A DNA stretch of 64,000 nt from Pseudochrobactrum kiredjianiae (GTDB lineage: Bacteria; Pseudomonadota; Alphaproteobacteria; Rhizobiales; Rhizobiaceae), in NCBI RefSeq assembly GCF_030362795.1, contig NZ_JAUCBM010000001.1, positions 744,001 to 808,000 on the forward strand. Direction: 5' to 3'. The notes under the pieces were generated by a model that saw only the letters and a program-made list of their open reading frames with translations, was not told the DNA's origin and searched no databases. Position numbers and translations under genes: made by a program. Below, piece by piece: positions 47,289 through 62,464 of this stretch (its first letter is position 1; the number at the start of each line of letters is the position of its first letter).

Positions 47289-48308
47289 TTACTGGCCGAT
47301 TTTGGCGTTCCATTCTTTCAGCCATGTGTCACGGTTGTCGAGAACGACATCGGACGGAATGAGCTGAAGGCTTTTAGCGGTTTCTTCGCCATAGGTAATG
47401 TTATTGGCAACTTCGTCAGAGACCTTAACTTCCTTATTGGCAGGGCTGTCGACCAGCTTTTCAGCAATTTTGGTCTGAATTTCTGTAGAGAGCCAGAAAT
47501 CCATGAATTCCAGAGCCAGATCACGGTTCTTGGTATCCTTGGCAACGACCATCACATTCATACCGCCGGTCTGGCCTTCTTTCGGTGTTGCCCAGCCGAG
47601 CGGCAGGTCAAGCTTGGTGAAAGGAGCCCAGGAGAAACGGCCGATTGGCGCTGCCCAGATTTCTTCCTGCTGCATCAGCTGCACGAGCTGCGAGGATTTG
47701 ACATAGAAAGTCACGATATCATCGGACTTTTCACCAACAGCAGCAATGGCGTTTTTCAAATCCGCTTCATTATGACCGAGGGATTTTTCCAGCATGTAAA
47801 GTGCTGTCGGACCCTGATTGGTGGTCACATTCGGGAAAGCAATATGCGGTGCATATTCAGGTTTCAGAAGGTCTGCCCAGGATTCGATTTTCATCTTGTC
47901 GGTGCGGTAGACGATAGATGTCGCGTAGAATGTGTAGCCAACGCTCATGCCGTCTTTGTTCGGGTCTTTGGCAATGTCATAAAGCTTGTCGAAGTTGGAC
48001 AGCTTGGCTGTGTCGATCTTTTCGATCAGACCGGCACGCGATGCCTGCAGCGCATCCGCCATGGAAACAACAGCCATATCCACAACCGGATTGGCTTTAT
48101 TGGCTTCCATTTTGGCCAGACGCTCTACGCTGTTGCCGGTTTCAACAACCAGTTTACAGCCGCATTTTTCTTCAAAAGGCTTGTAGAGGATTTCTTTGAA
48201 ATCATCCTGCGCAAAAGCGTAAACCGAAATGGTCAGTGTCTTGTCAGCGGCGTAAGACGCTGTGGTCAGAAGCGCCAGTGTGGATGCGGCGATGAGTTTC
48301 TTCAGCAC
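47289..48308 (-). CDS. PotD-like ABC substrate-binding protein
   Basis: This 339-residue SBP_bac_8 type protein has a signal peptide (VLKKLIAASTLALLTTASY, cleavage after AYA/YAA) and phrases 'YKPFEEKCGCKLVVETGNSVERLAKM', 'GYTFYATSIVYRTDKMKIESWADLLKPEY', 'MNVMVVAKDTKNRDLALEFMDFWLS'. The GTG at 48308 is chosen as start because AAAGGA lies 8 nt upstream; the longer frame to 48356 has no ribosome site. Substrate prediction: nucleoside or base, from the neighbouring salvage enzymes, not polyamine. Confidence 0.87.
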   Translation of the reverse strand: MLKKLIAASTLALLTTASYAADKTLTISVYAFAQDDFKEILYKPFEEKCGCKLVVETGNSVERLAKMEANKANPVVDMAVVSMADALQASRAGLIEKIDTAKLSNFDKLYDIAKDPNKDGMSVGYTFYATSIVYRTDKMKIESWADLLKPEYAPHIAFPNVTTNQGPTALYMLEKSLGHNEADLKNAIAAVGEKSDDIVTFYVKSSQLVQLMQQEEIWAAPIGRFSWAPFTKLDLPLGWATPKEGQTGGMNVMVVAKDTKNRDLALEFMDFWLSTEIQTKIAEKLVDSPANKEVKVSDEVANNITYGEETAKSLQLIPSDVVLDNRDTWLKEWNAKIGQ

Positions 48309-48310
48309 TT

Positions 48311-49369
48311 TTAAAGTCCTTTTGCGGAAGTGGATGAGGATAGAATAGAACGGCATGTTTGGCGGGCAATCAGCGTCATTGGCACACGGGATGTGCCGAA
48401 TGTCGGCACCGGCCCTTTGCGGCTTTCACTTTTGCCTTCAATAGCTTGCACCAGTGAGGCAATGGCAATTTCACCGATACGCGGCAAGTCCATACGCACG
48501 GTGGACAGAGCAGGCGTAATGCCTGACGCCCAGAACAGGTCATCAAAACCAATAACACTGACATCATCCGGCACACGGTAACCACTGTGATAAAGCTCGG
48601 TCATCGCACGCAGGGCATGCACATCAGACACGGCAGCAATGGCCGTTGTGCCGGATGTAATTTTCTCATTCAGGCCGAGATGGGCGCCTTTGCCGAATTC
48701 AGCCTCGTGATGTTCGATCCACAGAACATCAATTTCTGTTTGTTTGCCTAATCCTGCACGAATACCGCCCAAACGGTCATTCTGCACGATAGAGGCCGGA
48801 TTTTTACCGATCAGCAGCACTTTGCGGTGTCCGCCGGACACCAGATGCTGGCCAACCAGCTCGCCGCCCTGCCAGTGATCCGCCGCAACCGTATTGCCGG
48901 GCGTTGAAGGGCTGTCGATCACCGCAACAGGAATATCCAGATCCGCAATGCGGGTGCCAAGGCGCGGTACAATCACCAGACCATCGACACCATATTCAAT
49001 CAGACGATTAATCGCTTCAGTCTGAAGACTGACATTTCCGCGGGAATCCGCAATCAGAATACCATATCCGGCTGCCGCTGCCGCTGCTTCAATCGCCTGT
49101 GCGATTTGCGGAAACAGAGGATTGGCAATATCAGGCAAAACCAGTCCCAGCACACTGTTGCGCCCTGTACGCAAAGCCCGTCCTGTATGGCTCGGGACAT
49201 AGCCCATCTGGATAGCTTTTTCTTTAATGCGGGAAATGAGACTGGCAGAAACCCGTCCTTTTCCGGACAGGGCATTGGACACAGTTGCAACCGACACACC
49301 TAGGGCTTTAGCGACATCGCTCAGATTGGGTGTCTGTTTAGGTTGCAAGGTGTCGGACATCGAAACCAT
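48311..49369 (-). CDS. LacI-family repressor
   Basis: This repressor of about 352 residues has an N-terminal LacI HTH with hinge ('NLSDVAKALGVSVATVSNALSGKGRVSASLISRIKEKAIQMGYVPSHTGRALRTG', about 14-68) and a periplasmic-binding effector domain ('VLGLVLPDIANPLFPQIAQAIE', 'DGLVIVP', 'RVPDDVSVIGFDD'), like PurR. It is the first gene of the nucleoside operon, 2 bp from the PotD-like gene, with a candidate operator just upstream. The start is uncertain; 49360 and 49390 are alternatives. Confidence 0.87.
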   Translation of the reverse strand: MVSMSDTLQPKQTPNLSDVAKALGVSVATVSNALSGKGRVSASLISRIKEKAIQMGYVPSHTGRALRTGRNSVLGLVLPDIANPLFPQIAQAIEAAAAAAGYGILIADSRGNVSLQTEAINRLIEYGVDGLVIVPRLGTRIADLDIPVAVIDSPSTPGNTVAADHWQGGELVGQHLVSGGHRKVLLIGKNPASIVQNDRLGGIRAGLGKQTEIDVLWIEHHEAEFGKGAHLGLNEKITSGTTAIAAVSDVHALRAMTELYHSGYRVPDDVSVIGFDDLFWASGITPALSTVRMDLPRIGEIAIASLVQAIEGKSESRKGPVPTFGTSRVPMTLIARQTCRSILSSSTSAKGL

Positions 49370-49372
49370 CTT

Positions 49373-49388
49373 GATTAAACGATTAATC
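49373..49388. promoter_or_regulatory. Candidate LacI-family operator
   Basis: GATTAAACGATTAATC is a 16-bp near-perfect palindrome (7 of 8 base pairs) with a central CG, the usual form of LacI/PurR operators. It overlaps the translation start region of the LacI gene, consistent with autoregulation of the whole operon. It could also encode the N-terminus if an earlier start is used. Confidence 0.55.
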
Positions 49389-49636
49389 ATCTCCCGATAC
49401 GGATTCTCGGGCGGAGAGTCAATCAGGATAATCACCTTGTCATGATTCAGACACAGTTTATGCAATCAGGACTTGCCACTGATTTTGGCGGGATGCCGGA
49501 GGGGGCTTACATGAGCAATGCCGCCAGCAATTTGTTTTGACTGGTAATTTTACTGGCAGATAAGTAGTGAAACCGATGAATGGCGCGCTTTTAACGGGGA
49601 AAACGTCGTGCGGAAAAAACAATGAAACCGGATGAT
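49389..49636. other. Intergenic region upstream of the LacI operon
   Basis: I see no gene here. The stretch is expected to contain the lacI promoter, on the minus strand, and the region downstream of the Cds1-like gene. Confidence 0.5.
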
Positions 49637-49744: not shown

Positions 49745-50848
49745 TTATTCTGGCATCAGCTGTCCCTGATGGAAGAAGGCGCGCAGTTTTTGCAGGTGCG
49801 GTTCAATGTCAAAACCGTTGTCTTTAATCCAGCTGTCATTGAGATAAGTGGAGCGATAACGATCACCGTGGTCGCAAAGCAGTGTTACAACTGAACCGGT
49901 TTCTCCACGGCGGATCATATCGGAAATCAGATGCGCACAGGCCCAGATATTAGTGCCGGTAGAGCCGCCACAGGTGCGGCCAAGAATTTCACCGATGACG
50001 CGCTGGGCAGCGAGGCTGGCTGCATCAGGCACCACGACCATGCAATCCACGACTTTCGGTATGAAAGACGGCTCAACGCGCGGGCGGCCAATGCCTTCGA
50101 TCATCGAAGTGCAGCAAGGAATTTCCGTAACAGAACGATCCATAAAGTGCTGATGGAAGATAGAGCCGGAAGGATCGGCTACACAAAGGCGGGTGTCCAG
50201 CGCACGGTAGCGGATATAGCGCCCGAGTGTTGCGGAGGTGCCGCCGGTGCCAGCGCCGGTTACAATCCAGCGCGGGTTCGGATGTTCTTCGCGCTGCATC
50301 TGGCTGAAAATGGAGTCGGCAATGTTGTTGTTGCCACGCCAGTCCGTTGCGCGTTCCGCATAGGTGAACTGGTCCATATAATAGCCGCCGGTATCTTCTG
50401 CGACCTGACGGGCGGCATCATAAACGCTTTTCGGATCATCAACGAGATGCGGACGCCCGCCGTAAAATTCAATCGCTGCAATCTTCTCCGGCGAGGTGGT
50501 GCGTGGCATCACTGCCACAAATGGCAAGTTGAGCATACGGGCGAAATAGGCTTCGGAAACAGCGGTTGAACCGCTGGAGGCCTCAACGATTGTGGTGCGC
50601 GGGCCGACCTTGCCGTTACAAATGGCGAAGAGAAACAGCGAGCGGGCAAGACGGTGTTTCAGGCTGCCGGTCGGGTGGCTGGATTCATCTTTTAAATAGA
50701 GCGCAATGCCGTTGAATTTCGGTAGGTCAACACGGATAAGATGCGTATCAGCAGAGCGGTTGAAATCCGCTTCAATGATTGCAATAGCACGGTGGCGCCA
50801 ATCCATATGACATTCTTCGGTATGGCCACACTGAATAATCTGACTCAT
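49745..50848 (-). CDS. PLP-dependent cysteine synthase-like enzyme (Cds1-type)
   Basis: This 367-residue fold-type II PLP enzyme has PLP Lys in '[18 protein letters not shown]' near residue 64, '[27 protein letters not shown]' near residue 89, '[15 protein letters not shown]', and '[20 protein letters not shown]'. The '[14 protein letters not shown]' phrase is typical of the Cds1 cysteine desulfhydrase group (mycobacterial Cds1, about 350 residues), which makes H2S, pyruvate and ammonia from cysteine. It is a single gene with GGGGAA before the start. A cysteine-synthase-like reaction cannot be excluded. Confidence 0.83.
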
Positions 50849-50980: not shown

Positions 50981-51062
50981 GCTGGGGTAAACTCTGTAAA
51001 ACTAAAGCACTGTTTATCTTGCGCAAAGTGAAAACCCGCAAAGCAGTGCAGTTTCCCCCAGC
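50981..51062. other. Structured inverted-repeat element upstream of the CMD operon
   Basis: An outer stem, GCTGGGGTAAACT (50981-50993) with AGTTTCCCCCAGC (51050-51062), 12 of 13 pairs, encloses an inner stem, GCACTG (51007-51012) with CAGTGC (51044-51049), and a palindrome TTGCGCAA (51020-51027). It lies in the 415-bp gap before the ten-gene operon. It could be an RNA leader, small RNA or repeat. Nothing else gene-like is seen in 50849-51263. Confidence 0.5.
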
Positions 51063-51114
51063 CGCATATGTGCCTCGAGGAATTTATGAAATGAGCTGTT
51101 TTCCATTTTGGTGG

Positions 51115-51144
51115 TTGACAGCCTTAACTGACGGTGACAGGTTA
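51115..51144 (+). promoter_or_regulatory. Possible promoter of the CMD operon
   Basis: TTGACA (51115-51120) is followed about 19 nt later by GGTTAT/GTTATT (51140-51146), a weak -10 match with somewhat long spacing. It lies about 120 bp upstream of the first gene of the operon. Low confidence because the -10 fit is poor. Confidence 0.35.
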
Positions 51145-51263
51145 TTTGAAAAATGAATAAACGGCAATACTTCATCCGTAAAGTAACTATATCTCGCCGG
51201 ACAGTGTGATCTGTCTGTTACCTGATTGAAATGCTTTTGCTGAAGCAATGTCTGGGGAACGTA

Positions 51264-51767
51264 ATGAAACAATCTGCTTTGGAAGCCGTGAGCCTTTGGC
51301 TCGCCGGTAATGTTGAAGATGTGCCGCCTTTTGCGGCGCTCGTCGCCCGTCAGGATGTGTTTGTCATGACACGTCAGGCGCAGGATGCGGTGCTGAAGCC
51401 TGCGGATGCCGGTGCGTGGCCGCATGCATTGCGTGCAGCTTTTGCCGCCCGTATCGCGGCAGCAAATGACAATCCTTATCTCGGCGCGCTTTATGTTCAG
51501 GCTGCTGCCGGTTCAGACTATGCTGATCTCGCGCAGAGTAACTATGTGCCTGCCGATGCTGTGCAGCAAAAAGTCGTGGCTTTCATGGATAAAGTTGCCA
51601 ACAAGACCAAAGATGTCGGTGCAGACGATATCGCTGTTTTGCAGCAGGCCGGTATTGCCGATGCTGATATTGTGCGCCTGTGCGAACTGAATGCTTTTCT
51701 TGCCTATCAAATCCGCGTGGCGTCCGGCCTCGCATCTTTGGCTGAAGCTGACGGGGAGCAGAACTGA
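51264..51767 (+). CDS. CMD-domain protein (Avi_7170-like)
   Basis: The 167 residues resemble carboxymuconolactone-decarboxylase-fold proteins of the Avi_7170 type, which pair with an AhpD-like partner. No CxxC redox motif is present (the only Cys is in 'RLCELNAFLAYQIRVASGL'), so alone it is probably not peroxidatic. The start was set at 51264, with GGGGAA upstream. It overlaps the next gene by one base (TGATG). The family assignment rests on recalled gene neighbourhoods and should be searched. Confidence 0.72.
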   Translation: MKQSALEAVSLWLAGNVEDVPPFAALVARQDVFVMTRQAQDAVLKPADAGAWPHALRAAFAARIAAANDNPYLGALYVQAAAGSDYADLAQSNYVPADAVQQKVVAFMDKVANKTKDVGADDIAVLQQAGIADADIVRLCELNAFLAYQIRVASGLASLAEADGEQN

Positions 51768-52339
51768 TGAGCGAGATCATTCACAAATTCACGAAAACGG
51801 TTCCTGAATGGCGTCCGCGTGTGAAGCCGGTCGTGCTGGCGGAAGCTACACCCGAGCAGCTGGATGCACTGAAAGTGACACCATCCAACACCAAAGTATC
51901 TGATTATGTGCTGGTACTGGCGCATGATCCGGAAAGCCTGAATGTGCGCTCACCGCTGTTCAATACAGTGATGTATGGCAAAGGCGGTCTGGGGCGTGCA
52001 GAGCGTGAGCTTGGCGCATTGGGCGCATCGGTTGTCAATCGCTGTATCTATTGTGCAGCCGTGCATGCCCAGCGTCATGCGCAGCTCAGCCGTGATGAGA
52101 GCGTAACCGACAAGCTGTTCCTTGATGGCGAGAAGGCGAAACTTGATCCTAAAAATCAGGCGATTTTCGATTTTGCGCTGAAGCTGTCGCAGTTTCCGCC
52201 GCAGACAAATGCAGAAGATGCACGCCGGTTGCAGGAGCAGGGGCTGAACAAGGAAGAGGCCGTTGATCTGGTGCTGTCTACTGCCATGTTCGGCTGGGCA
52301 AATCGCCTGATGCATGTGCTGGGCGATCCCGTCAAATAA
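51767..52339 (+). CDS. Alkylhydroperoxidase-type CMD protein (Avi_7169-like)
   Basis: This 190-residue CMD/AhpD-like protein has the redox motif CIYC (Cys93-x2-Cys96) followed by His100 in 'RCIYCAAVHAQRHA', the AhpD active-site arrangement. It should reduce peroxides or a reactive organic intermediate. Its start overlaps the upstream CMD gene by one base. LysR follows after 63 bp. It probably detoxifies a product of the downstream monooxygenase-like protein, which is inferred from context. Confidence 0.8.
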   Translation: MSEIIHKFTKTVPEWRPRVKPVVLAEATPEQLDALKVTPSNTKVSDYVLVLAHDPESLNVRSPLFNTVMYGKGGLGRAERELGALGASVVNRCIYCAAVHAQRHAQLSRDESVTDKLFLDGEKAKLDPKNQAIFDFALKLSQFPPQTNAEDARRLQEQGLNKEEAVDLVLSTAMFGWANRLMHVLGDPVK

Positions 52340-52402
52340 CTGAATTCACCATCGTAGAGCCTGACCACTAATGCTGCCTGAACAGGCTGGCAGGGAGAGA
52401 TT

Positions 52403-53389
52403 ATGCGCAATTTAAAGGCGCTGGAAGCCTACTTGGAAGTTGCAACTTTAGGTAGCGTCACCGCCGCTGCCAAACGGTTGCAATTGTCCCAGCCTTCCGT
52501 CAGCCGGATTATTCAGGATCTGGAACGCGATCTCGGCCAGAAGCTTTTTGTCCGTGTCGGGCAGCGTCTGGCGCTGACCCAGCAGGGCATGTTGTTACGT
52601 GATGATGTGGAGCGGGCATTGGCCGGTGTTGCCGAGGTTTGGGAGCGCGCGCAGGAAGTGGCCAATTTACGAACACGGCCGGTGCGCATTGCCTGTATCT
52701 CGGCGCTGGCTTTTGGTCTTGTGCCGCATGCATGGGCATCCCTCAGCCATTCCGTTGGAGCAGAAGGTGCAAGACGTATCGCTATTCAGACGGATACGCC
52801 GGAGCGGGTGCGCAGTTCAGTTCTCTCGAACGATGCGGATATCGGTGCGACAAGCCTGCCATTACAGCATCGCGATCAGACAACCCACTGGTTCGGCAGT
52901 GCGCCCTGCGTGCTGGCTGTGCGGGCTGATGATCCGCTGGCGAAAGAGCAGGGGCCAATTCCGCTCTCGGCTATCAAAAGCCGTACATTGGTGGAAATGT
53001 CCAACCGTCGCGGTCTGCCCGCCCGTATCCGCCAGACTTTGAAAAATAATCATATCGAGACCGGCGGGCTGATCCGTACCAACTCAACCATGAATGCACT
53101 GGCGCTGATCCGTGCCGGTGCGGGTGGTCCTGCGGGAACCGTCGGTGTGGTTGAGCCGGTTACCTCTGCCGGTACGCCACTGGACGGTATTGTCACTTTG
53201 CCGCTGGAGCTGGATATTCCCTATAGTTTTGGTGTGATCAGTCACAATGCCACGCAGTTAAGTGAGACAGCAGCAGAACTGATCACCGCTCTGGAACAGG
53301 CCGCCCATCTCCTGGTGCAGGGTTTCAAACTTCACACGCCTGATGAACATCAATCGCTGATTACCCAGCTTGCATTGCTGGAGGACTGA
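52403..53389 (+). CDS. LysR-family regulator (inside the operon)
   Basis: This 328-residue regulator has the LysR HTH 'NLKALEAYLEVATLGSVTAAAKRLQLSQPSVSRIIQDLERDLGQKLFVRVGQRLALTQQG' (about 3-62) and a substrate-binding domain. Unlike most LysR genes it is not divergent: it lies within the operon, 2 bp before the flavoprotein. That makes feedback control likely. GGGAGA lies upstream of the start. Confidence 0.88.
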   Translation: MRNLKALEAYLEVATLGSVTAAAKRLQLSQPSVSRIIQDLERDLGQKLFVRVGQRLALTQQGMLLRDDVERALAGVAEVWERAQEVANLRTRPVRIACISALAFGLVPHAWASLSHSVGAEGARRIAIQTDTPERVRSSVLSNDADIGATSLPLQHRDQTTHWFGSAPCVLAVRADDPLAKEQGPIPLSAIKSRTLVEMSNRRGLPARIRQTLKNNHIETGGLIRTNSTMNALALIRAGAGGPAGTVGVVEPVTSAGTPLDGIVTLPLELDIPYSFGVISHNATQLSETAAELITALEQAAHLLVQGFKLHTPDEHQSLITQLALLED

Positions 53390-53391
53390 CC

Positions 53392-54849
53392 ATGACAAAA
53401 TTTCCCTCATCGCTTGAAGAACTCAACAGCCTCGTTGCCCGTGATCTGGATTATCTGACATTACCGGCTAAAGAATGGGTGCCGCTGAAACAGATCGGTG
53501 GCGAAACACTGCTGGATGTGGCGATTATCGGTGGCGGCATGGCAGGCCTGTCAGCTGCGGCATCGCTGAAACATCTTGGTATCCGCACGGTTATTTTTGA
53601 TGCACGCCCTCACGGTTTTGAAGGCCCTTGGGCAACAACAGCGCGCATGGAAACCCTGCGCTCACCAAAGAGCCTTACAGGACCGGCGATTGGAATTCCG
53701 TCTCTGACATTCCGTGCATGGTTTACAGCACAATTCGGTGAAGCCGAATGGGATGCCCTCGATAAAATTCCGCGCCTGCAATGGATGGATTATCTGCGCT
53801 GGTATCGCGATGTTCTCAATATTGAACTGCGCAATGATCATCGCATTACACTGATCAAGCCGGAAGCTGACCACACCGTGCTGGAGCTGGAAACCCCGCA
53901 AGGCAGCCAGACTGTCCGCGCCCGTCACGTGGTGCTGGCAACCGGACGCGATGGTCTCGGGGGGCCTTATGTGCCGGAGATTATCCGCACTCTGCCGAAG
54001 CAGTTCTGGGCACATTCGTCGGATGAAAATGATTATAGTGCGTTGAAGGGCAAATCGGTTGCCGTTATCGGTGCCGGTGCATCGGCGATGGATAGTGCGG
54101 CAACGGCTTTGGAAGCTGGTGCGGCGCGTGTCGATCTGCTGATCCGCCGCAAAGATATTCCGCGGATTAATCGTGGTAAGGGCATGGGTAATCCGGGCTC
54201 AGTCTATGGCATGCAAAATCTCGATGGCCGCACCAAACTGGTAATCTACAGCTATATCGGTGCGGAACAGGTGCCGCCGCCGCGTGCCAGTGTGCTGCGC
54301 GTCAGCCGCCATAACAATGCATTCTTTCAGCTGGGCGCTTCCCTTGAGAGTATCGTGGTGAAGGGTGACAAGATCGAGATCACCACGCCACAGGGACGCA
54401 GACAATTCGACTTCCTGATCGCTTCCACCGGTTTTCAGATTGACTGGCGCCAGAAAGCCTTCCTGTCGGAAATCGCCAGCAAAGCCCGCACATGGGAAGA
54501 GCGTCTGGCACCGCTGACCGGCAATGAGGATCGCTCATTGACTGAGGCACCGGATCTCGGACCATCTTTTGAATTCCTGCCAAAAGCGGGCGTGGAGGCA
54601 GAGGGTCTGTCCCGTATCCATTGCTTCTGCTATCCGGCCATGATGTCTCATGGCGGTGTATCCGGTGATATTCCGTCGATCAGTGAGGGCGCAGCCCGTC
54701 TGTCAACGGGCATTGCCGCCACGCTGTATCATGAGGACATCGACCAGCATTTTGCCAATGCCAAAAGCTATTCAGAGCCGGAAGTCTTCGGGGACGAATG
54801 GGTTGAAGCAGATAATTATGACCAGACTGATCTTGAGGCGCTGGTATGA
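53392..54849 (+). CDS. FAD/NAD(P)-binding monooxygenase-like protein
   Basis: This 485-residue flavoprotein has two Rossmann motifs: 'AIIGGGMAGLSAAASL' for FAD near residue 45 and 'VAVIGAGASAMDSAATAL' for NAD(P) near residue 223. The 'ATG' strand 'VVLATGRDG' lies between them and 'LIASTGFQ' lies near residue 345, as in flavin-containing monooxygenase-type enzymes. It may hydroxylate or oxygenate the imported substrate. Its stop overlaps the permease start by 4 bp. Confidence 0.82.
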   Translation: MTKFPSSLEELNSLVARDLDYLTLPAKEWVPLKQIGGETLLDVAIIGGGMAGLSAAASLKHLGIRTVIFDARPHGFEGPWATTARMETLRSPKSLTGPAIGIPSLTFRAWFTAQFGEAEWDALDKIPRLQWMDYLRWYRDVLNIELRNDHRITLIKPEADHTVLELETPQGSQTVRARHVVLATGRDGLGGPYVPEIIRTLPKQFWAHSSDENDYSALKGKSVAVIGAGASAMDSAATALEAGAARVDLLIRRKDIPRINRGKGMGNPGSVYGMQNLDGRTKLVIYSYIGAEQVPPPRASVLRVSRHNNAFFQLGASLESIVVKGDKIEITTPQGRRQFDFLIASTGFQIDWRQKAFLSEIASKARTWEERLAPLTGNEDRSLTEAPDLGPSFEFLPKAGVEAEGLSRIHCFCYPAMMSHGGVSGDIPSISEGAARLSTGIAATLYHEDIDQHFANAKSYSEPEVFGDEWVEADNYDQTDLEALV

Positions 54850-55826
54850 ATTTCACTGTCTGGCTCATCAAACGATTAGCTCAGGCGGCGGTCGTTCTGC
54901 TGATTATGTCGGTCATCGTGTTTCTCGGCCTGCATATGATCGGCAATCCGGCAGATATTCTGCTGGCACCCGATGCAACGCAGGTCGACCGCGCAGAGCT
55001 GATTGAACGCCTCGGCCTCGATCTGCCGGTCTGGCAGCAATATTGGTTGTTTCTGAAAAGCGCTTTGCAGGGCGATCTGGGCAATAGCTTTGTCTATAAT
55101 ACACCTGCGGTGACGCTGATCCTGCAACGCCTGCCAGCAACGCTGGAACTGGCCGTACTGGCAATGATCTTTGCGGTGTTTATCGGTATTCCGCTCGGTC
55201 TTTTTGCTGGGCTTAAACCGGAAAACCCGTTTGCCAAGCTGATCACAACCGGCAGTATTCTGGGCTTTTCCCTGCCAACTTTTTGGGTTGGCCTGCTGCT
55301 GATTATGACCTTTAGCGTCTCGCTCGGGCTGTTGCCTGCCAGCGGACGCGGCACAACCGTGCGGATTTTCGGCGTGGAGTGGTCATTCCTGACCCTCGAT
55401 GGTCTGCGCCATATGCTGCTGCCGGCAATCAATCTGGCAATGTTTAAAGTCTCGCTGGTTATCCGTCTCACCAATGCCGGTGTGCGTGAGGTGAAATCGC
55501 TGGATTATGTGCGTTTTGCCCGCGCCAAAGGCCTGTCGCCTTTGCGTGTTGTGCGCCGCCATATCCTGCGCAATGTTATGATCCCGCTGGTCACTGTGCT
55601 TGGTATTGAATTCGGTTCGACTGTCGCTTTCGCGGTGGTAACCGAGAATATTTTTTCATGGCCGGGTGCCGGTAAGCTTATCCTCGATAGTATCAACGCG
55701 CTCGACCGCCCTGTGGTTGTTGCCTATCTGATGGTGGTTGTGACGTTGTTTGTGACGATCAATCTTATCGTGGATATTCTGTATCGTGTGCTTGATCCGC
55801 GTGTCAGAACGGAGGCGGCCGTATGA
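54846..55826 (+). CDS. Peptide-type ABC permease (DppB-like)
   Basis: This 326-residue permease starts 'MNFTVWLIKRLAQAAVVLLIMSVIVFLGLHMIGNPADIL', as in DppB, with 'DYVRFARAKGLSPLRVVRRHILRNVMIPLVTVLGIEFG' near residue 220 and the end 'VDILYRVLDPRVR'. It starts 4 bp inside the flavoprotein gene and ends overlapping the next permease by 4 bp, so the genes are translationally coupled. Confidence 0.93.
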   Translation: MNFTVWLIKRLAQAAVVLLIMSVIVFLGLHMIGNPADILLAPDATQVDRAELIERLGLDLPVWQQYWLFLKSALQGDLGNSFVYNTPAVTLILQRLPATLELAVLAMIFAVFIGIPLGLFAGLKPENPFAKLITTGSILGFSLPTFWVGLLLIMTFSVSLGLLPASGRGTTVRIFGVEWSFLTLDGLRHMLLPAINLAMFKVSLVIRLTNAGVREVKSLDYVRFARAKGLSPLRVVRRHILRNVMIPLVTVLGIEFGSTVAFAVVTENIFSWPGAGKLILDSINALDRPVVVAYLMVVVTLFVTINLIVDILYRVLDPRVRTEAAV

Positions 55827-56722
55827 CCATGTCTCTCACCAAACCACCGCGCTCACCAATCGCAGAAAATATCCGCATGTTCCTGCGCTCGCCGCTTGCC
55901 GTTTTCGGGCTGGCTTTGTGTGTGCTGATTGCCGCCGCCGCTATTTTTGCGCCGCTGATCGCACCGCAGAACCCCTATGATATGATGGCGATTGACGTGA
56001 TGGATGCACGTCTCGCACCGGGTGAAACCAATATGACGGATGGTTATACCTATCTGCTCGGAACTGACGGGCAGGGGCGAGATCTGTTCTCGGCTATTCT
56101 CTATGGCCTGCGCACCAGTCTGGTTGTCGGCATTGGTTCTGCCACTATTGCCGGCGTGATCGGCATTGTGCTCGGGCTGGTTGCGGCCTATGCAGGCGGC
56201 AAAACCGATGCACTGCTGATGCGTCTGGTCGATCTGGTCATGTCGCTGCCGTCTATCCTCGTGGCACTCTTGATGCTGGCTTTCTTCGGTCGTGGTGTCG
56301 GCAATGTGGTAATCACACTGGTGCTGCTGGAATGGGCTTATTATGCCCGTACCGCCCGTGGTCAGGCACTGGTGGAAAGCCGCCGCGACTATGTGGAATC
56401 TGCCCGCGGGCTTGGCCTGTCGCCGCTCAGAATTCTGCTTGGTCATATTCTGCCGAATTGCATGCCGCCGCTGATTGTTATCGGTACATTGCAGATCGCC
56501 CGCGCGATTACACTGGAAGCTACGCTGAGCTTTCTTGGCCTTGGTGTACCGGTGACAGAGCCTTCGCTTGGCCTGCTGGTGTCCAATGGTTTCCAGTATA
56601 TGTTGTCGGGTGATTACTGGATCAGTTTCTTTCCGGGGCTGGCTTTGCTGATTTCGATCGTGGCTATCAACCTCGTGGCCGACCGCCTGCGTGATGTGTT
56701 TAATCCGAGGGCTTTATCATGA
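55823..56722 (+). CDS. Peptide-type ABC permease (DppC-like)
   Basis: This 299-residue permease has the DppC N-terminal extension, 'YLLGTDGQGRDLFSAILYGLRTSLVVGIGSATIAG' near residue 74, and the EAA loop 'RDYVESARGLGLSPLRILLGHILPNCMPPLIVIG' near residue 190. An insertion before 'YLLGTDGQ' (residues about 58-73) contains 'APGETNMTDGYT', longer than in GsiD and possibly a periplasmic loop. Overlaps are ATGA at both ends. Confidence 0.92.
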   Translation: MTMSLTKPPRSPIAENIRMFLRSPLAVFGLALCVLIAAAAIFAPLIAPQNPYDMMAIDVMDARLAPGETNMTDGYTYLLGTDGQGRDLFSAILYGLRTSLVVGIGSATIAGVIGIVLGLVAAYAGGKTDALLMRLVDLVMSLPSILVALLMLAFFGRGVGNVVITLVLLEWAYYARTARGQALVESRRDYVESARGLGLSPLRILLGHILPNCMPPLIVIGTLQIARAITLEATLSFLGLGVPVTEPSLGLLVSNGFQYMLSGDYWISFFPGLALLISIVAINLVADRLRDVFNPRALS

Positions 56723-57711
56723 GTGAATTGCTGCTGGATGTCCGTAATCTCTGCACGAGATTTTATACTGATGCCGGTGTGCTACATGCGGTTGAGGATG
56801 TGTCTTTTACGCTGCGTGCTGGGCAGACCATGGGGCTGGTCGGAGAATCCGGCTCCGGCAAATCGGTGACAGGTTTTTCGATTTTGGGGCTGATTGACCG
56901 GCCGGGTCGCATCGTGTCTGGTGAAGTGCTGTTCAAAGGACAGGATATTACCAAACTGTCAAAGAAACAGCTGCGCCATTTGCAGGGCAACCGTATTGCA
57001 ATGGTGTTTCAGGACCCGATGATGACGCTCAATCCGGTGCTGCGTATCTCCGAGCAGATGATTGAAGCACTGCAGGCGCATGAGAAAATCTCCTATACTG
57101 ATGCCCGTCAGCGTGCCCGTGATGTGCTGGGTGCAACCGGTGTGCCAAGCCCTGAAAGTCGTCTGGATGCCTATCCGCATCAATTATCCGGCGGTATGCG
57201 CCAGCGTGTGGCATTGGCAATTGCGATGCTCAATAAGCCGGATCTGATTATTGCTGATGAGCCGACAACGGCTTTGGATGTGTCGATCCAGTCGCAAATT
57301 CTGGCGGAAGTGCAGGGATTGGTCAAAGCCACCAATATGGCGCTGATCTGGATTACCCATGACCTGTCAGTGGTGGCCGGTATCGCCGACACTTTATCGG
57401 TGATGTATGCCGGACGTATTGTTGAAACCGGCCATGTCGGTGCTGTGCTTGATCAGCCACGCCATCCATATACCGCAGGATTGATCGGCAGCCTGCCCGG
57501 CAATGCGGAACCGGGCACCCGCTTGCAGCAAATTCCGGGACTGGCACCGAATATGTTCCATCCGCCGAAAGGTTGTGCTTTTGCCGCTCGTTGTGGCTCG
57601 GCAACGGATGCTTGCAATGTACAGCCGGAATTTACCGGAACAGAGGATCATCGCTATCGCTGCTTCCATCCGGTTACGCTGAATAGCAATATGCAGGAGC
57701 TGCGGCCATGA
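56719..57711 (+). CDS. Peptide-type ABC ATPase (DppD-like)
   Basis: This 330-residue ATPase has '[19 protein letters not shown]' near residue 37, 'AMVFQDPMMTLNPVLRI', '[41 protein letters not shown]', the switch His in 'WITHDLSVV', and the C-terminal oligo_HPY segment with four cysteines 'GCAFAARCGSATDAC...HRYRCF', a likely 4Fe-4S site known in this family. Confidence 0.93.
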   Translation: MSELLLDVRNLCTRFYTDAGVLHAVEDVSFTLRAGQTMGLVGESGSGKSVTGFSILGLIDRPGRIVSGEVLFKGQDITKLSKKQLRHLQGNRIAMVFQDPMMTLNPVLRISEQMIEALQAHEKISYTDARQRARDVLGATGVPSPESRLDAYPHQLSGGMRQRVALAIAMLNKPDLIIADEPTTALDVSIQSQILAEVQGLVKATNMALIWITHDLSVVAGIADTLSVMYAGRIVETGHVGAVLDQPRHPYTAGLIGSLPGNAEPGTRLQQIPGLAPNMFHPPKGCAFAARCGSATDACNVQPEFTGTEDHRYRCFHPVTLNSNMQELRP

Positions 57712-58751
57712 CCAGTAACAATCATGATATTACTGCTCAGCAACCAATTGTTCTGCAAATGCAGAATATTGAAAAGCGTTTTGGCGGCGGTGGTTCTGCC
57801 TTAACAGAGCGTATGGGGTTGTCACGCCCGCGCCCTGTTGTGCACGCGCTGGATGGTGTGAACCTGACCATCCGCGCCGGTGAATTTGTCGGTCTGGTTG
57901 GCGAATCCGGCTCCGGCAAGTCCACGCTCGGTCGTATTGCAGCCGGTTTGATGGCACCAAGCAGCGGCGAGGTTAAGGTCTATAATAAAGCACCATCACG
58001 CGAGAATAAAACACATCTTGATGTGCAGATGATCTTTCAGGATCCGCAGGCCAGTCTCAATCCGCGCAAACGTATTGATAAGGCTGTTGGCGAGGCCCCG
58101 CTGATCCATGGCCTGACGAACCGCGCAGGCATTGATGAGTATGTCAGTGCGCAGCTGCGCCGCGTCGGGCTTGATCCGGCAATCCGCACCCGTTTTCCGC
58201 ACCAGTTTTCGGGCGGTCAGCGGCAGCGCATCAGTATTGCCCGTGCTCTGGCGCTTAATCCGCGTTTTCTGGTCTGTGATGAATCCATTGCCGCACTGGA
58301 CGTTTCTATTCAGGCGCAAATCCTCAACCTGTTTATGGACCTGCGCGAAGAGCTTGATCTGACCTATCTGTTTATCAGTCATGATTTGCGGGCGGTGCGC
58401 CATGTCTGCGACCGCGTGCTGATCATGTATCTGGGCAGAGTGGTGGAGGATGCACCGGCGAAGGAGTTCTTTGCCCGCCCGAACCATCCTTATACGAAAA
58501 TGCTGCTGTCCGAAGTGCCGGATCTCTCGCAGCGCGGCAAAGCCTATTCAGCGATTAAAGGGGAAATTCCAAGCCCGATTAATCCGCCGAAGGGCTGTCA
58601 TTTCCACCCGCGCTGTCCGCTTGCTTTTGACAAATGCCGCCTTGAGCGCCCTGCATTGAAGCAGGTCGGTGAGCAGCATTTAAGCGCCTGCCACCTCAAT
58701 GATAACCCTTCATTTATTGATAAAGCCGCCCCATTGGAGTTAACCGCATGA
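57708..58751 (+). CDS. Peptide-type ABC ATPase (DppF-like)
   Basis: This 347-residue ATPase has '[19 protein letters not shown]' near residue 64, 'MIFQDPQASLNPRKRI', '[41 protein letters not shown]', the switch His in 'FISHDLRAV', and the cysteine-bearing C-terminus 'GCHFHPRCPLAFDKC'. It starts at the ATGA overlap with DppD-like and ends in another ATGA overlap with the binding-protein gene. Confidence 0.93.
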   Translation: MTSNNHDITAQQPIVLQMQNIEKRFGGGGSALTERMGLSRPRPVVHALDGVNLTIRAGEFVGLVGESGSGKSTLGRIAAGLMAPSSGEVKVYNKAPSRENKTHLDVQMIFQDPQASLNPRKRIDKAVGEAPLIHGLTNRAGIDEYVSAQLRRVGLDPAIRTRFPHQFSGGQRQRISIARALALNPRFLVCDESIAALDVSIQAQILNLFMDLREELDLTYLFISHDLRAVRHVCDRVLIMYLGRVVEDAPAKEFFARPNHPYTKMLLSEVPDLSQRGKAYSAIKGEIPSPINPPKGCHFHPRCPLAFDKCRLERPALKQVGEQHLSACHLNDNPSFIDKAAPLELTA

Positions 58752-60316
58752 AAAATTTACTTGCTGTCCTTGTTATGACCACCAGCCTGTTTTCTGCCAG
58801 TGCTATGGCAGAAGAACTGCGTATCGGTTTTGCGGATCCGTTGTCATCCATTGATCCGCAACTGAACAACCATGCCGGTGACCATTCTGTCGCCCAGCAT
58901 TTCTGGAGCGGCCTGACCGGCAAAGACGCCATTAATATGCAGCCGGGTGTTGCCAAGACATGGCGCAATATTGACCCGCTGACATGGGAATTTACCCTTT
59001 TTGACAATGCGGTCTGGTCTGACGGTCAGCCGGTGACTGCTGCGGATGTGGCTTTCTCCTATGACCGTGCCCGCGATGTGCCGGGCAGCGTTGCCAGCGT
59101 CAAAGGTTTTATCCGTACAGTTGATAAGGTCGAGATCAAAGATGACCATCATCTGCTGGTCAAAACCACTGTGCCTGATCCGCTGCTGCCGGTCAGCCTT
59201 TCCAGCCTCTACATTGTCAGCAAGCATGTCGGTGAGAAATCAACAACGGAAGATTACAATAGCGGTAAGGCCATGGTGACCAACGGCGCCTATAGCTATG
59301 TCGGCTACACACCGGGTGACCGTGTGCTGATGAAGCGCAATGAAACCTATACCGGCGACAAGCCTGAATGGGATACGGTTACCTATCGTTATATTGCCAA
59401 TCCGGCAGCGCGTACCGCTGCCTTGCTGGCTAAAGATGTGGATGTGATCGACAAAGTATCTGTTGCCGATATTTCCAAACTGGAAAAGTCGGAAGGCGTA
59501 AAAGTCTATGCCTATCCGGGTTTACGTGCGTTGATCATGCAGCCAAGCTTTAGCACGCAGCCGTCCAAATATCTGACCGACAAAGCCGGTAATCCGCTGA
59601 AGGAAAACCCGCTGCTGAATCAGAAAGTGCGTGAAGCGCTGACACTGGCGATCAACCGTGAAGCACTGGTGAGCCGTATCATGCAGGGTGGCGCAACGGT
59701 TGCGAACCAGTGGATGCCGGAAGGTACATTCGGTTATGACACGGATACGAAAGACATTCCGTTCGATGCCAAAAAAGCCAAGGAACTGCTGACAGAAGCA
59801 GGCTATCCGGATGGTTTCAAAATGACAATCCATGCGCCAAGCGACCGTTACCCGCAAGGCCCTGAAACCGCACAGGCTCTGGCTCAGTTCTGGACACGTA
59901 TCGGCGTGGAAACACAAGTAGAGGTCGTACCTTTCTCGGTTTATTCCGGCAGCGCCAACAAAAACGAATATGCCATGACCATGATCGGTTGGGGTAATGG
60001 CACCGGCGAGGGCACCTATGCCATGACCTCTATTCTGGCAACGCCGAATAAGGAAAAAGGCGTTGGTGCATCCAACTGGGGTCACTATAGCAGTGCCGAT
60101 CTCGATAAGGCTCTGGCTGAGGCAACGTCAGAATTTGACAATGCCAAGCGTGAAGATGTTATCCGCGGTGCGGTGAAAACCGTGATGGGTGATGTCGGTA
60201 TTATGCCGCTCTTCCATTATAAAAATATCTGGGCATCGCGCGATGATCTGAAAGTTGTGCCGTGGAACAGTGACCGTACCGTTGCGATGCAGGTCAGCAA
60301 AATCAAAGCTGACTGA
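58748..60316 (+). CDS. Peptide-type ABC substrate-binding protein
   Basis: This 522-residue SBP_bac_5 protein has a signal peptide (MKNLLAVLVMTTSLFSASA, cleavage after AMA) and phrases 'GFADPLSSIDPQLNNHAGD', 'WEFTLFDNAVWSDGQPVTAADVAFSYDRARDVPG', 'VTNGAYSYVGYTPGDRVLMKRNETYTGDKPEWDTVTYRYI', and 'NQKVREALTLAINREAL'. It closes the ABC block as the fifth component after two permeases and two ATPases. The substrate is unknown; a hydrophobic or modified small molecule is as likely as a peptide. Confidence 0.92.
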   Translation: MKNLLAVLVMTTSLFSASAMAEELRIGFADPLSSIDPQLNNHAGDHSVAQHFWSGLTGKDAINMQPGVAKTWRNIDPLTWEFTLFDNAVWSDGQPVTAADVAFSYDRARDVPGSVASVKGFIRTVDKVEIKDDHHLLVKTTVPDPLLPVSLSSLYIVSKHVGEKSTTEDYNSGKAMVTNGAYSYVGYTPGDRVLMKRNETYTGDKPEWDTVTYRYIANPAARTAALLAKDVDVIDKVSVADISKLEKSEGVKVYAYPGLRALIMQPSFSTQPSKYLTDKAGNPLKENPLLNQKVREALTLAINREALVSRIMQGGATVANQWMPEGTFGYDTDTKDIPFDAKKAKELLTEAGYPDGFKMTIHAPSDRYPQGPETAQALAQFWTRIGVETQVEVVPFSVYSGSANKNEYAMTMIGWGNGTGEGTYAMTSILATPNKEKGVGASNWGHYSSADLDKALAEATSEFDNAKREDVIRGAVKTVMGDVGIMPLFHYKNIWASRDDLKVVPWNSDRTVAMQVSKIKAD

Positions 60317-60327
60317 GGAACTGGCTG

Positions 60328-61605
60328 ATGTTGCAAATCTCTGTTGAACCAGCCGTAGCGCTGATTGATGTGGAGCGCCGGATTACGATATCCGGCGCTA
60401 AGCCACAGGGCAAAGTCACGGTCAAAACACTGACAAAGCGTGCCGGTCATGACTGGACGAGTGAGGCGGTTTTTGAAGCCGATGCACAAGGCGTGATTGA
60501 CCTGACCCGCGATGCACCTGTGTCCGGCACCTATCAGGGTGTCTCAGCTATGGGGCTGATCTGGTCGCAAAATCATGGCGGGCAGGGCATGTTGCCGCTG
60601 TTCCATCAGGATTTGTCACAGGCGCTTGAAACAACAATCACAGCAAGCTCCGGTGATGACAGCAGTGATGCATTGCTGGTGCAAACTCTGATGGCAGAAG
60701 GTGTGACCCGTGAGGAAGTGCGGGTGAACGGTCTTGTCGGCACGCTTTATCGCGCTGCTGGCAGTGAAGCACGACCGGCTGTGATGATCATGAACGGTTC
60801 CGGTGGTGGTGTGAATGAACCGCGTGCGGCGCTTTATGCGTCCCGTGGCTATCATGCGCTGGCACTTGGTTATTTCGGTGCAGAAGGTTTGCCAAAATAT
60901 ATTTCCAACACACCGCTGGAGTATTTTGAAAAAGGGCTGGACTGTTTGCGCGAAGCTGTGAAACCGAAAGATGATTTCGTGGCGGTCAGCGGTCAGTCAC
61001 GGGGCGGCGAGTTGGTGCTGTTATTGGGCGCTACCTACCCGCAGAAAGTCTCTGCGGTGATCGGCTATGTGCCGAGCGCATTTATGCATGGGGGGCAGGC
61101 GGCTGCCGATCCTGCCTTGGGTCGTGACGGGCCTTGCTGGCTCTATCAGGGCAAGCCGCTCACCCATATCTGGGATAATAACCGCTTTGCGAGCTGGAAG
61201 CCGTATGATGACGGGCCGCAGCCACGCCGCAACAGCGCTGCAATGCGTACCGCACTTGCCGATCCTGAAGCTATGCGCAAAGCGCGTATTCCGGTGGAAA
61301 AAATTGCAGGGCCGGTGATGCTGATCTCCGGCGGTGATGATGGTGCATGGCCGTCAGATTATTATTCACTGCTGGTGCAGTCGAGCCTTCTGGCCGCCAA
61401 TCATGCTTTTCCGGTGGCGTGGTATAATCATCCGGAAGCAGGACATTCCATCCTGTTCCCTTATGTGCCGGCTACGCAGATTGTTCATGCACATCCGGTC
61501 AATGGCAATCTCACGACAATGGGCGGCGAACCTGATGTGAATGCTGAGGCCAATGCCGCATCATGGCAGGCTGTGTTACAATTTTTAAAACAGGCAACGG
61601 CTTAA
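60328..61605 (+). CDS. BAAT/acyl-CoA-thioesterase-like hydrolase
   Basis: This 425-residue alpha/beta hydrolase has an N-terminal beta-sandwich ('ISVEPAVALIDVERRITISGAKPQGKV', about 1-120) and a C-terminal catalytic domain, the two-domain plan of BAAT/ACOT enzymes. The nucleophile is Ser224 in 'SGQSRGGELV' (Ser, as in thioesterases, rather than the Cys of BAAT). The acid is probably Asp in 'SGGDDGAWPSD' and the His in 'HPEAGHS'. It is the last gene of the operon, 11 bp after the binding-protein gene. An ester or thioester bond in the imported compound is the likely target. Confidence 0.85.
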   Translation: MLQISVEPAVALIDVERRITISGAKPQGKVTVKTLTKRAGHDWTSEAVFEADAQGVIDLTRDAPVSGTYQGVSAMGLIWSQNHGGQGMLPLFHQDLSQALETTITASSGDDSSDALLVQTLMAEGVTREEVRVNGLVGTLYRAAGSEARPAVMIMNGSGGGVNEPRAALYASRGYHALALGYFGAEGLPKYISNTPLEYFEKGLDCLREAVKPKDDFVAVSGQSRGGELVLLLGATYPQKVSAVIGYVPSAFMHGGQAAADPALGRDGPCWLYQGKPLTHIWDNNRFASWKPYDDGPQPRRNSAAMRTALADPEAMRKARIPVEKIAGPVMLISGGDDGAWPSDYYSLLVQSSLLAANHAFPVAWYNHPEAGHSILFPYVPATQIVHAHPVNGNLTTMGGEPDVNAEANAASWQAVLQFLKQATA

Positions 61606-61622
61606 AACGTCGATTAAACAGA

Positions 61623-61660
61623 AAAGGCGCAGTGTCGGATAACACTGCGCCTTTGTTTTA
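61623..61660. terminator. Terminator between convergent operons
   Basis: A 13-bp perfect stem, AAAGGCGCAGTGT (61623-61635) with ACACTGCGCCTTT (61642-61654), a 6-nt loop and a TGTTTTA tail. It stands between the hydrolase and the arginase-like gene and ends the ten-gene operon. The A-run on the other side may let it serve both directions. Confidence 0.85.
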
Positions 61661-62464
61661 CTTAAACAGCGGGGTGATGATCTCTTCGAGAACCGCAAGT
61701 GCTGCATTATTTGCAGCGGCATCATCGCCTGCTTCAAATTCGGCCAGTTCAATACCGGCAATCTTGTCCTGCGGCAGGGCGGCGAACACATCACGCAGCT
61801 GCTGTGGCATCAGACCATCTGCCACTTTATATGCAGCCGGAATGAAATCAGGCTCCATCACATCCCAGTCGACATGCACCCAGATTGGTGCATCACCGAT
61901 AGCCTGCAAAACCGTTTCAGGGGTGGTTTGGGCAGGGGCAATAATCCGGATACCGGCTTTTGCCAGCATTGCAGCTTCTTCTTCATCAATATCACGACCG
62001 CCGATGATGATAACCTGTTCAGGGCGCAAACCTGCACCATGGCCGCTGTCCCACAAACCGCTGGCGGCAGCGACAACCATGCCGCCGAGATAGCCGGAGC
62101 CGGTGGTCTCTGGCGTATTGAAATCACCGTGCGCATCAATCCAGAGCAGAACACTGTCCGGTCGCTCACGCGCAACAACCGGCAGGCTTGCCAGACTGGC
62201 AGAGCAGGTATTGGCAACGAGCACCGGTATCTGATTGTTTTTGAGTGTGGCGTCCAGAGCGTCGCTGATGCCGTTTAATGTGTCACGCGCTTGCGGCAGG
62301 CTGACGGACCAGTCATCAGTGACGACCGGTGAAAGAGAGCCGATTGTTGTTACAGGAGCAGAGGTGAGTTTCTCTACCAGTTTTGCTGTCAATGCCGCAC
62401 CCGGAATTGCGCCTACGGTGCGATCGGCAATGCGACCCTGTGAAAGAATAATATTATAGGCCAT
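61658..62464 (-). CDS. Arginase-fold (ureohydrolase family) protein
   Basis: The 268 residues keep the second and third ureohydrolase metal motifs: 'DAHGDFNTPETT.SGYLGGM' (Asp, His, Asp ligands) and 'HVDWDVMEPDF' (Asp, Asp). The first motif, usually GGDHS, reads 'VANTCSASLASL', so the His ligand is replaced by Cys and GGD by ANT. Arginases run about 300 residues, so this is a short member. The change may mean one altered metal site, a different substrate, or loss of activity. A terminator on either side suggests a single-gene unit. Confidence 0.78.
   Translation of the reverse strand: MAYNIILSQGRIADRTVGAIPGAALTAKLVEKLTSAPVTTIGSLSPVVTDDWSVSLPQARDTLNGISDALDATLKNNQIPVLVANTCSASLASLPVVARERPDSVLLWIDAHGDFNTPETTGSGYLGGMVVAAASGLWDSGHGAGLRPEQVIIIGGRDIDEEEAAMLAKAGIRIIAPAQTTPETVLQAIGDAPIWVHVDWDVMEPDFIPAAYKVADGLMPQQLRDVFAALPQDKIAGIELAEFEAGDDAAANNAALAVLEEIITPLFK

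Follow-up and report, generated by a model that had tools for sequence, protein, structure and literature searches.

The window analyzed here, a stretch of 64,000 nucleotides of Pseudochrobactrum kiredjianiae (assembly GCF_030362795.1, contig NZ_JAUCBM010000001.1, positions 744,001 to 808,000), is part of a 4.46 Mb genome and carries, between positions 51264 and 61605 of the + strand, ten co-directional open reading frames (ORFs). They represent a widely conserved bacterial gene set that probably serves to import a nitrogenous compound and to oxidize it with a flavin adenine dinucleotide (FAD) enzyme and a two-protein partner. The partner consists of two related proteins, CMDa and CMDb, of the carboxymuconolactone decarboxylase (CMD) type. 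To judge from gene neighborhoods, the genes for the FAD enzyme, CMDa and CMDb form the constant and portable core of the set. The best reading of its function, which we offer tentatively, is the uptake, oxygenation and breakdown of a compound derived from cysteine. In our literature search, which left most subscription journals outside its coverage, no description of the ten-gene set was found in titles or the openings of abstracts.

Candidate core and accessory genes

An earlier note on this DNA, made from the sequence alone, had proposed an uptake-and-oxidation unit, and neighborhood comparison confirms that this unit is conserved as a set and recurs in other genera. A CMDb gene was found near the FAD gene in 116 of the 159 scanned loci (L numbers below; genomes have G numbers) and not in the remaining 43. 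These loci are a non-random collection, in which 80 are the best matches of one search, close relatives are included, some loci are short and the same genome was entered twice in places (L049 is G001, L054 is G005). One locus labeled CMD-negative (L154) was cropped and has CMDb 10 kb away, and the contig ends within another locus that has no CMDb (L119). An even sample of the phylum (398 genomes) gave FAD matches with E≤1e-60 at 28 places in 23 genomes, the window's own included. A TIGR04030-type match (E≤1e-30) lies within 10 kb at 13 of the 14 places that score at least 645 bits (the exception is G435), and at none of the 14 that score 560.3 bits or less. An even sample of the class (289 genomes) gave 22 FAD places, of which 18 were inspected (16, the window's own, and that of G337, included as L156); CMDb is present at two of these (the window's own and G466) and missing at 16.

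The whole set in the gene order of the window is found in Gemmobacter and Bosea. Achromobacter, Herbaspirillum, Pandoraea and Comamonas have the order LysR-FAD-B-C-D-F-SBP-BAAT-CMDa-CMDb, with the CMD genes at the other end (B, C, D and F are the permeases and ATPases of a Dpp-type importer, SBP its solute-binding protein and BAAT a thioesterase-like hydrolase), and the same Burkholderiales-type order, with no recognized LysR gene, occurs in Advenella and Paenalcaligenes. Other loci combine the core with other importers: Pot-type in L035-L040, L142, Agrobacterium (L174), Sinorhizobium (L176) and Pararhizobium (L188), amino-acid-type in Pantoea (L131), Thioclava (L129), Rhizobium tumorigenes (L132) and R. 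etli (L133), and Liv-type in Azospirillum (L134), Burkholderia (L136), Paraburkholderia (L189) and L147. Our importer labels mark any homologue up to 10.5 kb away, so that some may stand for unrelated neighbors; by these labels, all four importer types are absent from 39 of the 116 CMD-positive loci. The BAAT-like gene is present in 48 of the 116 CMD-positive loci, all of the Dpp type (48 of 57 Dpp loci, none of the 59 others), and an opine-dehydrogenase-like gene in 27 of the 116 and in none of the 43 other loci; the two were never found in one locus. The Dpp importer and the BAAT-like hydrolase do not define the set and are exchangeable accessories. Since BAAT is limited to loci with a Dpp importer, the notion of an ester- or thioester-containing substrate rests on one accessory gene.

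The CMD pair

CMDa (51264..51767, +) is a CMD-like protein without a CxxC motif. It gave no Pfam match at E≤0.001 and scores below the cut-offs of TIGR04029 (53.5 bits, cut-off 100.75) and TIGR01926 (29.5 bits, cut-off 81.8). CMDb (51767..52339, +) is an AhpD-like protein that matches the Pfam CMD family and passes TIGR01926, the model for peroxidase-related CMD proteins, with 187.6 bits, and misses the cut-off of TIGR04030 (148.1 bits, cut-off 233.15). The assignment to the Avi_7169/Avi_7170 type made in the earlier note is therefore correct as to relatedness and incorrect as to family membership, both proteins scoring below the cut-offs of the respective models. The motif E-x11-CxxCxxxH of AhpD-type peroxidases is kept in all 116 CMDb proteins encoded near an FAD gene. 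According to our own ORF calling, the same 116 loci have CMDa as a separate protein in 78 cases, fused to CMDb in 22, and in neither form in 16. No CxxC is present within the CMDa domain of the separate or the fused copies, the two apparent cases being outside the domain. Fusions occur in Achromobacter, Candidimonas, Cupriavidus, Azospirillum, a Variovorax plasmid and four genomes of family f64; some fused lengths are too long because the ORF caller uses the first start. Fusion and constant pairing suggest that CMDa and CMDb form one dedicated hetero-complex.

Two probable oxygenases for related CMD pairs

The phylum sample contains 28 TIGR04030 matches, 14 below and 14 above the cut-off of that family. 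Of those below it, 13 lie beside an FAD gene (G364 is the exception); of those above it, none does, and all 14 are located within 0.8 kb of a luciferase-like monooxygenase gene of family TIGR04027. One TIGR04027 protein above its cut-off, in G374, is without CMDb. Because the two groups of CMDb adjoin different genes in this way, there appear to be two CMD pairs, each with its own, unrelated flavin oxygenase. The earlier note had seen no luciferase-like monooxygenase, and indeed the genome that contains the window gave no TIGR04027 match at E≤1e-30.

The two types of loci share an importer. Six of 14 loci with TIGR04027 and CMD genes (L195-L199 and L201, all of one genus, g64) have a Liv importer that is 61-75% identical to that of the FAD-type locus of Azospirillum. 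Five of these genomes were compared by binding protein, of which each has 34-49 homologues. In all five, the top match is the one encoded beside TIGR04027 (63-64% identity), and the runners-up by score are 28-29% identical. Since the same Liv importer occurs with either enzyme, the TIGR04027 protein, which uses flavin mononucleotide (FMN), and the non-homologous FAD oxygenase probably have equivalent roles, most simply by acting on one and the same imported compound. We further propose, as a possibility about which we remain doubtful, that CMDa-CMDb is a new two-subunit enzyme of the CMD superfamily, with one subunit devoid of catalytic cysteines. It would take over what a flavin oxygenase has just formed, and either of two unrelated oxygenases (FAD N-hydroxylase-like or FMN luciferase-like) would supply it by acting on the same imported, perhaps cysteine-derived compound.

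The FAD protein and its relatives

The product of 53392..54849 (+) is an FAD/NAD(P)-dependent monooxygenase-like protein that matches PF13738 and, with 59.5 bits against a cut-off of 21.3, PF13434. An AlphaFold model based on 36 sequences has a mean predicted local distance difference test score of 84.1, with low confidence for residues 80-91. Among the Foldseek matches listed for this model, 49 of 50 are N-hydroxylases of ornithine, lysine or other amines; the top match has a TM score of 0.67 by query, a root-mean-square deviation of 4.1 and 15% identity. Both the predicted fold and the PF13434 match point to an N-hydroxylase-like monooxygenase.

A quick tree of FAD proteins from 90 of the 159 loci, with SH-aLRT support only, has long branches for L048, L044, L175 and L209 and an outgroup that is not on one side of any branch. 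The presence of CMD genes is clustered on this tree, with 6 changes, a number as low as which was reached in none of 500 shuffles; the importer changes 6 times among rows with a single importer label. The FAD proteins of the window, Gemmobacter and Bosea are nested in a mostly burkholderial clade, which suggests an old horizontal transfer. More distant relatives with 37-39% identity are encoded near genes for hydroxyisourate hydrolase and OHCU decarboxylase (L041), or by a gene that overlaps that for hydroxyisourate hydrolase (L210). Both are outside the CMD clade, and no CMD gene was found in their scanned loci; conversely, no urate-pathway gene is present among the ten genes of the window or their annotated neighbors.

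Some further relatives deserve mention. A contig labeled Saprospiraceae (Bacteroidota; L114) carries FAD-CMDa-CMDb, which falls in the mostly burkholderial clade, together with a TctC gene; perhaps its assignment is a binning error. On a pTi plasmid (L175), a 35% identical FAD relative belongs to a gene run that also encodes a Dpp-type importer, an acyl-CoA dehydrogenase-like protein and a pair of luciferase-like monooxygenases, and that has no CMD genes. A second recurring FAD cluster, seen in L178, L155 and L183, comprises genes for an HCCA-isomerase-like protein, a membrane dipeptidase, a carboxylesterase and a Pot-type importer; the CMD pair is missing from it in L178 and L155. An in-frame TGA in three FAD relatives was considered as a selenocysteine codon and rejected, since it is an ordinary stop codon at the gene end.

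Proposed pathway and alternative explanations

In the pathway that we propose for the window, a small nitrogenous compound would enter via the Dpp-type ATP-binding cassette (ABC) importer and be oxygenated at nitrogen, sulfur or a neighboring carbon by the FAD enzyme with its N-hydroxylase-like fold. The cysteines of CMDb, as part of the hetero-complex with CMDa, might then reduce or resolve the unstable oxygenated product, which could be a peroxy, N-hydroxy or sulfenic form, and the BAAT-like hydrolase might free an acyl group. The product would be cysteine, to be split by the adjacent Cds1-family enzyme. Importer and hydrolase would be swapped from species to species, according to the molecule in which the shared chemical group is carried.

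The Cds1-family gene on which the cysteine part of this proposal is in part based (49745..50848, -) encodes a pyridoxal phosphate enzyme of the L-cysteine desulfhydrase type (NF052478, 553.2 bits, E 2.7e-166) and was missing from the earlier note. It is divergent from the operon; the distance is 382 bases if the ORF is taken to start at 51231, and 415 if it starts with the ATG at 51264. Enzymes of this family split cysteine to sulfide, pyruvate and ammonia, and RidA removes the 2-aminoacrylate made by cysteine desulfhydrases. In two Gemmobacter species (L051, L056) a Cds1-family gene is also divergent beside the operon, with an Lrp-type regulator gene in between. Rhizobium WYJ-E13 (L183) has on one strand genes for the FAD protein, B, C, D, F, an S/N-oxide reductase (bisC family, 769.3 bits, cut-off 1017.55), CMDa, CMDb, a RidA-type protein and Cds1; a stretch between C and D is without assignment, and an M24 peptidase is encoded at this position in the related locus of Microvirga (L187). 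Cds1 was found near the FAD gene in six of the 116 CMD-positive loci, from three genera, and in none of the 43 others. Since a Cds1-type gene (E≤1e-100) is present in 14 of the 289 genomes of the class, chance is an unlikely explanation for its position next to the core in three genera. Four CMD-positive loci have a SufS-like enzyme, among them L035 and L142, and two of the four have a sulfur-dioxygenase-like gene: in R. etli and R. tumorigenes, the SufS-like enzyme, the sulfur-dioxygenase-like protein and an annotated sulfite exporter are encoded beside the core. The idea that the substrate is a thiazolidine, with 5-oxoprolinase involved, found no support in the literature search and was dropped.

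Several observations weigh against the proposed pathway. Cut-offs were missed for Cds1 (553 of 600 bits), bisC (769 of 1018) and sulfur dioxygenase (519 of 625). In 110 of the 116 CMD-positive loci, no Cds1 gene turned up over a distance of about 10 kb, and among the 14 genomes of the class sample that have Cds1, only that of the window has it beside the FAD gene; in G702 the two are on different contigs. The Rhizobium strains Pop5 and NXC14 are without the sulfur genes seen beside the core of R. etli, so the link in the latter species may be incidental. Some close relatives of the FAD gene (L101, L102 and L144, 56-59% identical; L155 and L178, 43-46%) have no CMDb gene in their vicinity. The scanned TIGR04027-type loci (L191-L205) gave no Cds1 or SufS-like match, which slightly lowers our confidence in the proposal. 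Other products are possible as well: in place of the cysteine genes, some variants with a Pot importer have genes for glycine C-acetyltransferase, threonine dehydrogenase and an opine-dehydrogenase-like protein, and others have hydantoinase genes.

The latter genes would fit a different substrate class. The core could oxidize a nitrogen heterocycle or amine (urate-, hydantoin-, polyamine- or opine-like) as a nitrogen source, with finishing enzymes that vary per species (opine-dehydrogenase-like, hydantoinase, hydrolase) and with the cysteine genes being incidental, an explanation that we consider conceivable although somewhat doubtful. It would agree with the restriction of the opine-dehydrogenase-like gene to CMD-positive loci, with the predicted amine N-hydroxylase fold, with the hydantoinase gene hyuB, seen in 4 of the 43 loci without CMDb and in 3 of the 116 with it, and with the location of the more distant FAD relatives near hydroxyisourate hydrolase. 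Furthermore, the Sinorhizobium meliloti unit discussed below is, in the available part of its description, under nitrogen-regulator control (PMC3596328). The combination of Cds1, a RidA-type protein and an S/N-oxide reductase within the gene run of the core, however, fits sulfur better, and the urate-linked relatives, as described above, share 37-39% identity, fall outside the CMD clade and come without a CMD gene in the scanned loci.

The model of the earlier note, in which an ester or thioester is imported, hydrolyzed by the BAAT-like enzyme and oxidized, while the AhpD-like protein removes a peroxide by-product, is improbable. In its favor, the Ser, Asp and His residues of the hydrolase are in register with those of human ACOT2 (3hlk), and the AhpD motif of CMDb is intact. 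Against it, 68 of the 116 CMD-positive loci, of which a few are on short contigs, retain the FAD-CMD core and gave no BAAT match; CMDa lacks the motif cysteines and is nevertheless conserved, in some cases as a fusion; and well-coupled flavin monooxygenases are not known to need a dedicated peroxidase. Less probable still is that the core is a stress-defense module for the removal of a toxic amine or peroxide that travels by chance with transporter genes: the AhpD-like motif could be taken as a sign of such a role, as could a gene for MATE efflux that adjoins the core in L174 and L188, but importer genes are the usual neighbors, and one importer accompanies CMD pairs with either type of oxygenase. 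Import and breakdown of a cysteine derivative remains the reading that we prefer, with the reservations given.

Organization of the locus

The ten genes in one direction and their overlaps, as listed in the earlier note, were found again in the ORF listing and junction check: the overlap is 1 base at 51767 and 4 bases at 54846, 55823, 56719, 57708 and 58748, and gaps of 63, 2 and 11 bases precede 52403, 53392 and 60328, respectively. Gene 1 has an alternative start at 51231, and its ATG at 51264 is preceded by GGGG six bases upstream. Besides the core, all on the + strand, the operon encodes a LysR-type regulator (52403..53389; PF00126, PF03466), the Dpp/Opp-type permeases B (54846..55826; PF00528, PF19300) and C (55823..56722; PF00528, PF12911), the ATPases D (56719..57711) and F (57708..58751), both with PF00005 and the oligo_HPY tail PF08352, an SBP_bac_5 solute-binding protein (58748..60316; PF00496, 270.3 bits) and the BAAT/ACOT-type thioesterase-like hydrolase (60328..61605; PF04775, Bile_Hydr_Trans, and PF08840, BAAT_C). 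A terminator-like hairpin of 13-14 pairs follows at 61623..61654 (+, and on both strands); the scanned region has 25 such sites, as compared to 16.3 ± 3.7 in shuffled sequences. Upstream, a candidate control region (51056..51230, +) is identical in three Pseudochrobactrum genomes: its 175 invariant alignment columns, with TTGACA at 51115-51120, lie just before the gene 1 ORF, and the left part of the intergenic region is variable. A regulatory role of the invariant stretch is possible. No Rfam family reached its gathering score between 44000 and 64000.

The genomes G001 and G005 have the same ten genes in the same order, with 94-100% identity. The record of locus L049 (JAHREI010000001.1) is titled Bacillus subtilis SK6B4; its operon has 95-100% protein identity and Pseudochrobactrum gene order, and the genome looks mislabeled. 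Convergent with the operon is an arginase-family gene (61658-62464, -) that scores under the arginase and agmatinase cut-offs and, among the scanned loci, occurs at this place in the same genus only. On the other side, adjoining Cds1, genes for a PotD-like binding protein (69.3 bits, cut-off 582) and a LacI-type regulator (47289-49465, -) probably belong to a separate importer system.

Significance and comparison with known systems

The operon is ordinary in its parts; what is unusual is that importers and oxygenases are exchanged as modules around the probable complex of two CMD proteins. An anonymous operon can now be regarded as a member of a broad modular catabolic family of Alpha-, Beta- and Gammaproteobacteria, sometimes carried on plasmids. 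Orphan CMD pairs gain a testable role as an obligate hetero-complex, the same job is suggested for the orphan TIGR04027 monooxygenase and the FAD protein of the window, and cysteine derivatives are offered as a testable substrate class.

With the N-hydroxylating monooxygenases PvdA, KtzI and SidA, the FAD protein shares the predicted fold and the PF13434 match; it differs in sequence (15% identity) and in being set beside an importer and a CMD pair. The operons for salvage of S-substituted cysteines in Bacillus subtilis (CmoJ, YxeK), which our literature search did not turn up, likewise combine an importer with a flavin monooxygenase that frees cysteine, but use luciferase-type enzymes and an N-acetylation cycle and have no CMD pair, unlike the operon described here. 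HpyO is, according to the portion of the paper available, a flavoprotein urate hydroxylase that depends on FAD and NAD(P)H (PMC4562309). The urate-linked relatives L041 and L210 would correspond to it, a placement made by gene neighborhood and not against the HpyO sequence, as they adjoin urate genes where HpyO would be expected; the protein of the window is found elsewhere in the tree, is 37-39% identical to these relatives and has CMD partners.

There is also a likeness to the set of TIGR04027, TIGR04028, TIGR04029 and TIGR04030 (KPN_01858 monooxygenase, KPN_01854 binding protein, Avi_7170/Avi_7169 CMD pair), which combines an importer, a flavin oxygenase and a CMD pair, and of which six of the 14 TIGR04027-CMD loci have the Liv importer in common with FAD-type loci. 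The differences are that the oxygenase of the window is an unrelated FAD protein and that CMDa, CMDb and the solute-binding protein score under the cut-offs; the latter reaches 79.1 bits against TIGR04028, where 468.5 are needed, and is thus not of the KPN_01854 type. KPN_01858, the namesake of TIGR04027, is given as higher under iron limitation in the accessible text of a Klebsiella study (PMC7194016).

A further described system is what looks like an equivalent of the ten-gene unit in S. meliloti, SMb20278-SMb20285, matched via gene order and description and not via the sequence of strain 1021. In the part of the source at hand, these eight genes encode a LysR regulator, a potFHIG-like importer, a pyridine nucleotide-disulphide oxidoreductase, a hypothetical protein and a carboxymuconolactone decarboxylase, and form one expression cluster that is affected by glnD and glnBglnK mutations (PMC3596328). 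A LysR regulator, an importer, an FAD-type oxidoreductase and a hypothetical protein next to a CMD protein thus occur together in both systems, and the gene order in S. medicae (L176) matches; the S. meliloti unit differs in having a Pot-type importer, and that part of the description names no BAAT-like hydrolase.

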